DNA of 33,684 bases, from assembly GCF_018274385.1 (NCBI RefSeq), contig NZ_JAAFYZ010000104.1:1-33684 (forward strand), given 5' to 3'. The notes beneath the pieces were generated by a model that was not told the origin of the DNA, did no database searches, and saw only the letters and a list, made by a program, of their open reading frames with translations. Positions 530-33,672 of this stretch are shown piece after piece. The translations under genes and the position numbers were made by a program. The stretch is from Catenulispora pinistramenti. Its GTDB lineage: Bacteria; Actinomycetota; Actinomycetes; Streptomycetales; Catenulisporaceae. Positions within the stretch are counted from its first letter, which is position 1. The number at the start of each line of letters is the position of its first letter.

Positions 530-1239
530 GGCCCCTCCCCGAATCCGGCAACGCTGAAGCCACCGGGTTGTACTGTGAGCATCTGGAACGGTCGGCTCGA
601 CGAGCCGAAAAAGGAAAGCAAACCTCTGACGTGTTGCACACTGCTCAGGTTGCTAGCCCCGTGATCACCGGGCATCCGGGTATCGTAGTCGCAGGTCCGC
701 CGCATGCGGGACCGCTTTTCTCAGGCGCCTGATACACCCCGACGGCTTAGCCGGGCGGCGCCATCCCTGCGACGTCCGCTCTGGCCATCGCGCGCAGTGC
801 GGCACCGGAAGCCAGGATCCTGGAGGCGTCAGTACGCGCTGCCAGCCCGACAGACATGAGGCACATGTCAGCTTCTTTCTAGAACGACCTGGAACACGGT
901 TGATCTGTCGTGCGCTTTCCGTGGCGGGGGCGGTGTGGAATCGGTCCCGAGAGGTAGCGGAGGCTGCGGCGACCTTCTTCACGGCATCGACCTCCGCATG
1001 AAGAGATGATCAAGATGTACTGCCAGAGGATCCCGCTCCATCACCGGTGACCGCCAGAAGCCCGTACTGCCCTGTACACCCGGAACAACAAATTTAGTGC
1101 CCTTCATAGGTCGTCGGACGTCGAAGATAACCAAGTTTGGTGCTTGAGGGCAACATCTTTGGTGCTCGTTGGTGCTGCTTGGTACAGTCGCCCCTCGTCG
1201 GCGCCGAAGCCGCCGGCAACACGGGAAGGAGGCTGCCTC
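530..1239. other. Intergenic region between divergent genes
   Basis: This 710-base gap separates the partial minus-strand gene from the XRE regulator. Frames exist on both strands, but none keeps the GC-biased third position. The minus frame from a GTG at 982 has a usable GGAGG site, but its codon bias decays after about 26 codons, so it may be a remnant. The right end holds TTGGTGC repeats, listed separately. Confidence 0.5.
1130..1185. promoter_or_regulatory. Phased TTGGTGC repeats, likely repressor operator
   Basis: TTGGTGC or its close variant TTGGTAC occurs at 1137, 1159, 1169 and 1179. The last three are exactly 10 bases apart, on one face of the helix. The first copy is also the right half of an inverted repeat, ACCAA-GT-TTGGT (1130-1141). 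A weaker copy, TTTAGTGC, sits at 1093. The cluster lies 55-110 bases upstream of the XRE gene start, where autoregulatory operators of such repressors usually lie. Binding by the XRE protein is inference. Confidence 0.55.
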
Positions 1240-1658: not shown

Positions 1659-1692
1659 ATGACCTGTTCGAACTTGCGTTCGAACAGGTCAT
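1659..1692. promoter_or_regulatory. Perfect 15-bp inverted repeat containing a LexA/SOS box
   Basis: The arms ATGACCTGTTCGAAC (1659-1673) and GTTCGAACAGGTCAT (1678-1692) are perfectly complementary around TTGC. The core at 1668-1683, TCGAAC-TTGC-GTTCGA, matches the actinobacterial LexA consensus TCGAAC-N4-GTTCGA without a mismatch. It lies 27 bases after the XRE stop and 57 bases before the peptidase start. A weak promoter (TTGCGT, then TATCAA 18 bases on, 1674-1703) would be covered by LexA. The same hairpin could also terminate XRE transcription. The SOS reading and the terminator reading do not exclude each other. Confidence 0.7.
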
Positions 1693-1749
1693 TGCGCTAT
1701 CAAGGGGTATTGATGCTGGCATGCCGGTTAACGTGCGTGAGGTGAGTCA

Positions 1750-22745: not shown

Positions 22746-24188
22746 TCACGCGGCAGCCGCGGCGGGTACGTCTGACAGGGCCTGCTCGGGCCCGGATGGC
22801 TTCGACCCCGTCTCTGGTTCCGGTGGTGTGGGATCGGTGGCCTGGCCGGGGACGCGTAGCGGCATCATCAGGTAGCGGTAGCCGTCGAAGTCGTCGCAGA
22901 CAGGGCTGTGGTGTCCGGTCAGCACGGCTGGTTTGGCCGCGATCGTGAAGCCGAAGCGGACGTACCGGGTGTTCAGGGTCTTCAGTCCGTCGATGAGGAA
23001 GCCAGGGTTGAACGAGGCGACCAGTGGCGTCTCGCCGGGCCAGGTGGCGCGCACCGGTTCGCTGGCCTGTGCTTCGTCTCCGGCTCCGGCCTCCAGCAGC
23101 ACGCTGGCGCCGTCGAAGGACAGTCGGATCGGTGAGGTGCGGTCGGCGACCAAGGCAACCCGTTCGACAGCGGCCAGCAGGGCCTTGGTGTCGGCGACGG
23201 CCCCGGTGTTCTGCGTCGGGAACAGGGACCGGTATCTGACGTACTCGCTCTTAAGGCAGCGGCCGGTGGTGTGCTGCTCCCCGAAGGCCAGCCCGGCGAG
23301 CCCGGCCCGGTGCTCGGCCTGGACGCGGGCCTCGGTGCGCCGGTCAGCAACATCGCGTGCCTTCACCACGTCCGGGTGGCCGTGCCACATCCGAGACTCC
23401 AGCTCGGCCAGGGTCTGAAGTGCCTTCGCCTCGGCTGCTGCCTCGGCGCCGGCCTCGTGCTGCCAGGTCAGGCGCAGGTCGCCGACGGCCTTGGCCCAGC
23501 GGGTGGCCACGGTCTTGAGGAACTTCGCGGGCAGCAGCGCCGTCCACGTCTCGGCGTCCAGGTCGTCGGGGATCCACGGGACTTCGGCGGTGGCCAGCCG
23601 GAACCTGTCGGTGCCGGCGAGCATCAGCGTCTTGCCCTCACCGGTGATCTGGATGCCGGTCAGCATCGGGATCGTGTCGTCACGGCCCACCGAGACGAAG
23701 ACCCGCTTGATCGCGGCGACCAGTGCCGGGGCATCGACCGTTCCGCCTGCGGCTGGGATGGCGGGCAGCTGCGGGTAGTCCTCGACCGGAAGGGTCTGGA
23801 GGGTGTAGCGGGTGGGCCCGGCCTGCACGATCAGCTTGGAGCCTTCAGCGACCAGGGTGACGTGTTCGGCGTCCAGCTTCTTCAGCAGGTCGTGTAGCAG
23901 CCTGCCGTGCACCAGCAGCCTGCCCGGCGTGGTCGTGACGGCCGGGATCCGATCCCGTGTGGCGTGGTCGAAGTTCCAGGCGGACAGCGTCAGGTGGCCG
24001 CCGGTGGCTTCCAGCACGATCCCGGCCAGCACGGGGGCGGCCGGTCTGGTCGTCAGACTGGCGGCCACCCCGTTGCCCGCGACCAGCAGGGCCTTGCGAT
24101 CGACGGTGGTGTTGAACTGCGGTGTGGCAGTAGAAGCGCCCGCCGCCTGGTCGGCGGCGGGCGTGGTGAGCTCCAGGGTTGTGGTCAA
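22746..24188 (-). CDS. dnaN: DNA polymerase III beta sliding clamp paralog
   Basis: The TTG at 24188 is the likely start. GGAGG lies 8 bases upstream, and TTGA overlaps the upstream stop; an ATG at 24203 has no ribosome site. The 480-residue protein has the three clamp domains: VDRKALLVAGNGVAASLTTR with VLAGIVLEATGGHLTLSAWN (domain 1), AIKRVFVSVGRDDTIPMLTG with TDRFRLATAEVP (domain 2), and FNPGFLIDGLKTLNTRYVRF with the C-terminal YLMMPLRV (domain 3). Between domains 2 and 3 is an extra Ala/Glu-rich helical insert of about 70 residues (AAAEAKALQTLAELESRMWH onward), and the tail is Pro-rich. Clamps tether polymerases to DNA, so a second copy on a mobile element suggests that the element steers replication or repair. 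It is longer than the usual 370-380 residues. Confidence 0.85.
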   Translation of the reverse strand: MTTTLELTTPAADQAAGASTATPQFNTTVDRKALLVAGNGVAASLTTRPAAPVLAGIVLEATGGHLTLSAWNFDHATRDRIPAVTTTPGRLLVHGRLLHDLLKKLDAEHVTLVAEGSKLIVQAGPTRYTLQTLPVEDYPQLPAIPAAGGTVDAPALVAAIKRVFVSVGRDDTIPMLTGIQITGEGKTLMLAGTDRFRLATAEVPWIPDDLDAETWTALLPAKFLKTVATRWAKAVGDLRLTWQHEAGAEAAAEAKALQTLAELESRMWHGHPDVVKARDVADRRTEARVQAEHRAGLAGLAFGEQHTTGRCLKSEYVRYRSLFPTQNTGAVADTKALLAAVERVALVADRTSPIRLSFDGASVLLEAGAGDEAQASEPVRATWPGETPLVASFNPGFLIDGLKTLNTRYVRFGFTIAAKPAVLTGHHSPVCDDFDGYRYLMMPLRVPGQATDPTPPEPETGSKPSGPEQALSDVPAAAAA

Positions 24189-24475
24189 GCGGGGGTCCTC
24201 CATATTGGATGGTCGGGCACGCGGTGTACAGCCGCTGCTGACGTATCGATCGGCGGAACGGCGCCGGCTTGGGGAAGGGCGCTATCCGCCAGGTATCGAT
24301 CGGCGATCTCGTGCGCCAGCTGCCCCGCCTGGCGCCGGTCTGTGGCATGCAGGCCGGTCGGCGTGCGGACTCGGTCGGTGTAGGTGAACAGCTCGCCGCT
24401 GGCGTGCACCCAGTGCACGGCGGTGACCCCGTCGATGACGTATGCGGTGTAGTCGGGGTTGAGGAACCCGAACAC
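24185..24475 (-). CDS. Small hypothetical protein (96 aa)
   Basis: The GTG at 24475 is preceded by GAGGAGG. The product starts VFGFLNPDYTAYVIDGVTAV, a compact strand-rich domain, then a helix (AGQLAHEIADRYLADSALPQ) and a Pro-rich tail. It ends four bases into the likely start of the beta clamp gene, so the two are translationally coupled. It lies ten bases after the DUF932-type gene. No motif is recognised. Confidence 0.7.
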   Translation of the reverse strand: MFGFLNPDYTAYVIDGVTAVHWVHASGELFTYTDRVRTPTGLHATDRRQAGQLAHEIADRYLADSALPQAGAVPPIDTSAAAVHRVPDHPIWRTPA

Positions 24476-32759: not shown

Positions 32760-33345
32760 GATCACCGCCTCCCCTCTCGCTTGCCGTTCCCCGCCGGTCC
32801 GTTCCGGCGACGTCCCAAAGAGTCCATTAGATGTCCCAGGTAGTCAAGTCTTCCAGGTCAGAACCCTTACCGCGCGCCATCGCGAGCCCACGTCCGCCCC
32901 GCCCGCGCGCCGCGTGCCGTGTGCCGTCCGCGACCCCGATGCAAGATCAAAGAGTGCGTAAGGCAGGGGACTGATATAGCCTGCGGCCAGCGCGAATCAA
33001 GATCACCGCGCCTCATTCGATCTTGTTCTTGTTATTAGGGGGTTTATGGATGGTGCGGGCTCCCGGGATTTTTGACCCCCTGGAGATCAATTTATAAGGA
33101 CCTTGATTTAACAGCGTCTTGTCTGACCTGCGGAGAATCGTTTGTGCTCGTTCTCGGCACTCCGTACCCTCTTGATCGGCGGCCATCGGTGTGCCCAGAT
33201 GCGCACGACCGCCCCATCTATCCCCGGACCTACTGACCGCCGTGACTCCCATGTGAGCGGCGGCCGGCAGCGGTCTGTCTCCCCTGGTTCACCTCGCCCC
33301 GTGCTGCGGGGCGGTGCTTTGCGCTGTCCGGAAGGGATCCAAGCG
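32760..33345. other. AT-richer intergenic region before the WhiB-like gene
   Basis: This 586-base gap has no convincing gene. From about 32940 to 33130 it is clearly less GC-rich than the rest of the window. It repeats the word AAGATC or its complement GATCTT (32943, 32999, 33018), and also contains GAGATCAATTTATAAGG (33083 on) and CTTGATTTAAC. It must contain the promoter of the WhiB-like gene. It may also be an origin or attachment region. Confidence 0.45.
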
Positions 33346-33672
33346 ATGACGACGATGACGGCGCAGCCGCGGCTTGCGGCACTGATCGGCGAGCTGCCGC
33401 CCTGGATGTCCTACGGGGCGTGCCGGGATGAGGACCCGGATCTGTTCTTCGGCGCCGACCCCGGGTTCGGCTGCTACGGCGAACGCAAAGCAGCCCGTGT
33501 CGCCCGGGAGAAGGCGGCGAAGGCCGTGTGCGCTGCCTGCCCGGTTCGCGAGTCCTGCCTGGAGTTCGCGATGACGACCCCCGAGCACGACGGCGTCTGG
33601 GGCGGGCTGACGGACAAGGAGCGCCGACGGATGCGCCGGGCCACGCTGCGGAAGCCCACCCCCTCTACCTGA
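33346..33672 (+). CDS. WhiB-like (Wbl) iron-sulfur transcription factor
   Basis: The ATG at 33346 (MTTMTAQPRLAALIG) follows GAAGGGA. The 108-residue protein has the four Wbl cysteines at 26, 62, 65 and 71 (GACRDEDPDLFF, then VCAACPVRESCLEF), which hold a [4Fe-4S] cluster. It also has the GVWGGLTDKERRR turn and basic end (83 on) that contact DNA or the sigma factor. An extra Cys43 lies in a Gly/Phe-rich loop (GFGCYG). Wbl proteins are confined to actinobacteria and their phages and plasmids, where they bind the principal sigma factor. Here it probably regulates the element or its host. An AT-rich region lies upstream. Confidence 0.9.
   Translation: MTTMTAQPRLAALIGELPPWMSYGACRDEDPDLFFGADPGFGCYGERKAARVAREKAAKAVCAACPVRESCLEFAMTTPEHDGVWGGLTDKERRRMRRATLRKPTPST

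Follow-up and report, generated by a model that had tools for sequence, protein, structure and literature searches.

A LexA-type box between XRE-type repressor and ImmA-type protease genes suggests SOS-gated induction of a Catenulispora prophage

How does DNA damage reach an immunity switch that is formed by an XRE-type repressor and an ImmA-type protease? For ICEBs1, activation of ImmA is attributed to RecA, and damage is described as driving ImmA-type proteases through RecA (PMC11841131, available part of the text). In S. mutans the link from damage to the ImmA-type protease is called not well known (PMC10233336, available excerpt), and in Listeria the MpaR-driven excision seen with mitomycin C depends on the SOS response, the term "SOS box" being absent from the accessible portion of that text (PMC6872733). 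A second way of coupling damage to phage induction is represented by Tum of phage 186, AntC of N15 and GfoA/GftA of Gifsy, which are encoded by LexA-repressed phage genes and whose products disable the phage repressor (PMC3121763, available part). In S. venezuelae, according to the accessible part of the source, LexA recognizes the motif tCGAAC-N4-GNNCGa and prophage genes are among the most induced LexA targets (PMC9380542). The window analyzed here, that is, the whole stretch of 33,684 nucleotides that constitutes contig C7 of the 11.46-Mb genome of Catenulispora pinistramenti, carries a repressor-protease gene pair with a LexA-type box between the two genes, and raises the question of whether the host repressor LexA could directly control the synthesis of such a protease.

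The gene for the XRE-type repressor (130 aa) occupies positions 1240–1632 of the forward strand, and the gene for an ImmA/IrrE-type zinc protease of 144 aa, with the motif HELIH, occupies positions 1750–2184 of the same strand; a ribosome-binding-site-like GAGGTGA can be read ahead of its ATG (1739–1745, forward strand). The repressor matched phrog_6288 (E 6e-14) and the protease the metallo-protease family phrog_87 (E 1.5e-17). It is by these PHROG matches that the ImmR-ImmA-type arrangement, an XRE repressor adjoining an HExxH protease of the M78/IrrE kind, was recognized; the Pfam scores were just under the cut-off, by one bit for HTH_3 in the repressor (22 bits, cut-off 23) and by half a bit for Peptidase_M78 in the protease (21.5 bits, cut-off 22). 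Against the sequences of solved structures the sole match of the protease up to E 1 was IrrE (3dte, E 0.043), aligned across the HExxH stretch, and an AlphaFold2 model built from a three-row alignment had a mean pLDDT of 41 and gave no usable structure. The tblastn searches returned no match of the protease against plasmids and no match of the repressor against phages at 1e-3. Upstream of the repressor gene there are TTTGGTGCT-type direct repeats (1136–1186, forward strand), two of them spaced 10 bases apart and kept in the three prophages described below, that may be operators of the XRE protein. Directly 3' of the protease gene, a G+C-rich hairpin (2187–2225; 18-nt arms, 94% complementary) is a terminator candidate.

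Between the two genes lies a perfect inverted repeat (1659–1692) that begins 26 nt past the repressor gene and ends 57 nt ahead of the ATG of the protease. Its arms (1659–1673 and 1678–1692) are of 15 nt each, 100% complementary and separated by a spacer of 4 nt. This is the longest perfect inverted repeat of the window (loops of 0–12), and perfect arms never exceeded 11 when the window was simulated 20 times with a first-order Markov model. Centred in it is the LexA core TCGAAC-TTGC-GTTCGA (1668–1683, TCGAACTTGCGTTCGA), which agrees with 12 of 12 core letters and fits the S. venezuelae motif as given in the available part of PMC9380542. A sequence-only reading of this DNA had claimed a perfect actinobacterial LexA core inside a 15-bp perfect inverted repeat, located between the genes of an XRE repressor and an ImmA-type protease, and both claims were confirmed. 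The pattern CGAACNNNNGTTCG occurs once in the window with 0 mismatches; allowing up to two mismatches raises the number to 19, which shuffled sequences reach as well (mean 21.55), and therefore the exact match alone stands out. A longer pattern, TCGAACN4GTTCGAWS, was matched at the core only (shuffle mean 0.00).

In the whole genome (11,463,658 bases), TCGAACNNNNGTTCGA was found at three places and its backwards control at one. Two of the three exact 16-mers, in the window and on contig C2, precede a protease of this kind. The third (L003:1501-1516, equivalent to G000:C511:49478-49493) is located approximately 30 bases ahead of a 56-aa ORF; a tyrosine integrase gene comes after this ORF and an HTH gene lies upstream, and this locus is perhaps another LexA-controlled mobile element. 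The genome also has about 37 sites with one mismatch. Given that 15 of the 20 inspected (out of 40 places) fall inside roughly called genes, we do not regard these sites as a regulon; near the called start of a radical-SAM gene, and likewise of a UvrD-type helicase gene, there is such a site, which is suggestive only. So many near matches, along with the perfect match in the backwards control, are what can be said for the view that the LexA match in the window arose by chance. This view is nonetheless very improbable, since it has to account for a box placed between repressor and protease, kept in three prophages, and found again ahead of two distantly related phage proteases.

The box in the window is of the type present at the host's own lexA gene, given that a sequence of the form TCGAACA[AG][CT]CGTTCG[TC] lies upstream of lexA at all nine full-length loci of Catenulispora. 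The LexA protein retains the cleavage site and the catalytic pair of self-cleavage. The arrangement GTTCGAAC-N4-GTTCGAAC, as in the window, is present in 43 of 394 genomes of Actinomycetes, with varied spacers, and its backwards control gave 0 among the matches listed. At four of these loci from other Actinomycetes (L317, L338, L326 and L334), it is close to SAV_6107-like HEPN genes and genes with an aminoacyl-tRNA editing domain. SOS genes do not all fit the LexA box, because Catenulispora recA has none with up to three mismatches within 500 bases upstream in any of nine loci (L153–L161). The nine recA loci carry instead TTGTCAGTG-N8-TAnnnT, 85–91 bases ahead of the matched part of recA, a motif that corresponds to the LexA-independent P1 type, i.e. 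a PafBC-type promoter (PMC5656591, available part), and in three of four recA loci of sister genera TCGAACTAT[AC]GTTCTA was observed. In the window, the PafBC-type motif with up to two mismatches is not in excess (6 occurrences, shuffle mean 6.35).

Two further copies of the repressor-protease pair were identified, one on contig C2 of the same genome and the other on a 95,750-base contig of Catenulispora pinisilvae NH11. With respect to the window copy, the protease is 96% identical in C2 and 81% in C. pinisilvae, and the XRE protein 85% and 71%, respectively; across 391 genomes of the order, matches were present in five other genomes, every one remote. The C. pinisilvae contig has matches to terminase, portal, major head, tape measure, minor tail, integrase and Ant-type proteins. 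When 14 proteins of this contig were compared with the searched 60 kb of C2, nine had a match with 60–95% identity; the other five, which include the integrase and the minor tail protein, all come from the left part of the contig. Virion structural genes are hence present in C. pinisilvae and, by similarity, in C2. In the window there are genes for an annealing protein, a DNA methyltransferase and a sliding clamp, and long stretches of its sequence also occur in C2 and the C. pinisilvae contig; in that portion of its ORFs that was scanned, neither virion genes nor conjugation families were found. On account of the virion genes of the related elements and the long stretches shared with them, the carrier is read as a prophage, and its assignment as an ICE was rejected. 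The clamp is a DNA polymerase III beta clamp (22746–24203), and a gene for a WhiB-type transcription factor (33142–33672) is located at the right end of the contig.

The LexA core and its 4-nt spacer are identical in the three prophages, and the dyad around them comprises 15 perfect pairs in the window copy and 19 in C2; in C. pinisilvae it reaches 20, with one internal G-T. One outer pair is changed on both sides in C2 with respect to the other two copies. These three sequences suggest, without being decisive, that the dyad is maintained. Counted past the 20-mer, the arms of the window copy run for 7 pairs, those of C2 for 11 and those of C. pinisilvae for 12 (one G-T lying further inward), as compared with at most 4 pairs in 57 other LexA boxes (27 viral sites and 30 genomic loci, a subset of the places listed). 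The long dyad exceeds the needs of LexA, and one way to account for it is that the repeat acts in RNA, as a terminator, attenuator or processing site between the two genes, the LexA match being incidental. The RNA of 1650–1710 has indeed a predicted fold of −28.1 kcal/mol (z −6.24), and a pair changed on both sides together with a G-T is what an RNA stem permits. No T-run follows the stem-loop at 1659–1692, and it was rejected as an intrinsic terminator; the G+C-rich hairpin past the protease gene is a separate structure. Moreover, the inner arm and the 4-nt spacer fit LexA exactly, a perfect repeat (arms of at least 10, loop of 3–8) was found upstream in 0 of 50 other protease loci, and one viral box described below keeps the core without the outer arms. 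We thus consider a hairpin that works in RNA improbable.

Another possibility is that a second protein, from the phage or from the host, binds the long dyad with LexA or instead of it, so that the switch would receive two inputs. The extra pairs speak for this idea, and there is a precedent in gp7 of GIL01, a phage protein that strengthens LexA binding (PMC11841131, available part of the text). Nevertheless, no candidate protein was found, and the candidate operators of the XRE protein are unlike the dyad; for this same reason, the dyad was rejected as the operator of the XRE protein itself. A second binder therefore seems unlikely to us, although less so than the other explanations weighed here. 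A recombination or telomere site was also rejected, from the sequence only, considering that no integrase adjoins the repeat and that its centre, TTGC, is not symmetric.

Viral contigs were scanned for boxes, and the 405 loci that resulted from the matches listed (3.62 Mb) were searched with a profile of 55 proteases; a scan of the viral contigs for CTGTTCGAACNNNNGTTCGAACAG gave 0 matches. Among the matches listed there were five protease ORFs below E 1e-5, and in two of them, L474 and L261, a box is located just upstream. In L474, part of a contig of 30.9 kb, the repressor gene is followed by the box (at 2601), by the protease gene (starting at 2631), by a small gene and then by a serine-recombinase-type integrase (phrog_95). 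The repressor of L474 matches phrog_12831 and phrog_6288, the latter being also the family of the XRE protein of the window. This locus was found with a pattern that demands an ATG 25 nt past the box, a demand that biases the search towards gene starts. No arms extend past TTCGAAC/GTTCGAA in the L474 box, and therefore it is the core, rather than the outer arms, that recurs; the sequence-only reading would have been contradicted by homologous elements that kept the hairpin and lost the core, and what was found is the opposite. In L261, from a 37.2-kb contig, a repressor (phrog_12831) and two genes are followed by the palindrome CATAGTTCGAACATATGTTCGAACTATG, which overlaps the start codon of the protease, and then by a tyrosine integrase. 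Identity to the window protease is 32% over 94 residues for the phrog_87 protease of L474 and 35% over 89 residues for that of L261, and in a quick tree the common ancestor with the window protease spans 32 and 20 of 60 leaves, respectively. Given these low identities and wide spans, it is likely, though not proven, that the box arose separately in the window-type, L474 and L261 lineages, and because it was found in two only distantly related viruses, a LexA box before the protease may be a means that viruses have repeatedly used to leave dormancy upon host damage. The other three proteases do not support this arrangement, and they count against the LexA wiring: in two related viral contigs the LexA-like box is within the protease gene (L251:11669-11686 and L245:1595-1612), and in L442 it is 1.9 kb away. 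L237, with a poor protease match (E 7e-4) and a box 49 nt ahead of the ATG, is not supporting either. In another viral contig, a one-mismatch LexA box lies within the matched protease stretch (L019:5212-5227).

Matches to phrog_87 were obtained in 155 of the 394 genomes of the class Actinomycetes. From the matches listed, 50 stand-alone proteases with an open frame of up to 268 aa were compared, leaving out the two of the same genome, one near a contig end (G027:C1:525-707) and long fusions. For four of the 50 (L069, L075, L130 and L134) a contig end left less upstream DNA, below 600 bases in L069, L130 and L134. In the 600 bases upstream, or fewer in those three, no LexA box with up to one mismatch was found (0/50), and boxes with two mismatches were found in 2 of 50, as compared with 1 of 50 in the backwards control. 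Likewise, none of 13 Gordonia phage loci had a LexA box (up to two mismatches) in the 500 bases upstream. From these two results it follows that the wiring is not general, and a LexA box ahead of a phrog_87 protease is uncommon.

Considering this evidence together, we propose, with a probability of about 0.7, that the locus serves as immunity module in a temperate phage and that LexA, the SOS repressor of the host, gates phage induction through the ImmA-type protease. LexA bound at 1668–1683 would hold down transcription of the protease gene, whether by occluding its promoter or by stopping read-through that comes from the XRE gene. Upon damage, RecA on single-stranded DNA would bring about the self-cleavage of LexA, and once LexA is gone the protease would be made and would cut the XRE protein, a step proposed by analogy; the lytic genes would then be freed and the prophage induced. 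LexA binding, induction by damage and the role of XRE as master repressor are inferred. The direct control of protease synthesis by LexA is well supported by the sequence data, because the box is of the host lexA type, core and spacer are invariant, and there are two distant viral cases. Several observations count against it, namely the rarity of the box among other proteases, a dyad longer than in other LexA boxes, a spacer that is invariant in three copies, beyond what LexA alone would require, the location of most of the inspected one-mismatch sites of the genome within genes, and a weak promoter. On this last point the sequence-only reading, which had placed the box over a possible promoter of the protease gene, was not borne out: a sigma-70-type consensus scan gave no match of at least 9/12, and the weak candidate formed by TTGCGT (1674–1679), 18 nt and TATCAA (1698–1703) on the forward strand is invariant in the three copies and fits the consensus poorly. 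As for its proposal of a LexA-wired switch of the ICEBs1 type, the direct LexA control has good support from the sequence, whereas the carrier turned out to be a prophage rather than an ICE.

The module resembles ImmR-ImmA of ICEBs1 and its relatives (IrrE-DdrO and Listeria MpaR) in that an XRE repressor adjoins an HExxH protease of the IrrE/ImmA kind and in its damage-linked induction, which here is predicted (PMC11841131, PMC10233336 and PMC6872733, available parts). In the ICEBs1 type, RecA is described as acting through the protease, ImmR controls its own promoter, and the accessible portions of these sources describe no LexA box on the protease gene; here, in contrast, a LexA box precedes the protease gene and the carrier is a prophage. 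With Tum, AntC and GfoA/GftA it shares, by sequence, a LexA operator, placed here ahead of a gene whose product may disable the phage repressor; Tum and GfoA/GftA, however, act by binding the repressor and preventing its contact with the operator (PMC3121763, available part), whereas the product here is a predicted protease. The box is also of the type found at the LexA-regulated prophage genes of S. venezuelae, where hypothetical proteins and a tail fibre protein make up the prophage targets listed in the accessible part of the source (PMC9380542), in place of a predicted repressor-cutting protease. In the parts of the literature available to us, no report was found of a LexA box controlling an ImmA-type protease gene; the novelty of the locus is thus that it combines two established kinds, ImmR/ImmA and the antirepressors under LexA control (Tum, AntC, GfoA/GftA), and connects their two literatures. 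If true, LexA gating would divide sensing, by host LexA, from execution, by the phage protease, and would make the damage-to-protease question directly testable. We give even odds to a broader proposal: that this is a recurrent phage switch in which damage would be sensed only by the host LexA, and the ImmA-type protease would need no RecA input because its amount alone decides. Such a switch would have arisen several times (in the Catenulispora prophages, L474 and L261) through a LexA box between the repressor and protease genes, and the Catenulispora phage would respond to the LexA branch rather than to the one driving recA. A box between a repressor and a phrog_87 protease provides a sequence rule for finding more cases. 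Within the genome studied here, the prophages of C2 and C7 are related and carry the same immunity module, and therefore a common trigger and cross-control between them are possible.
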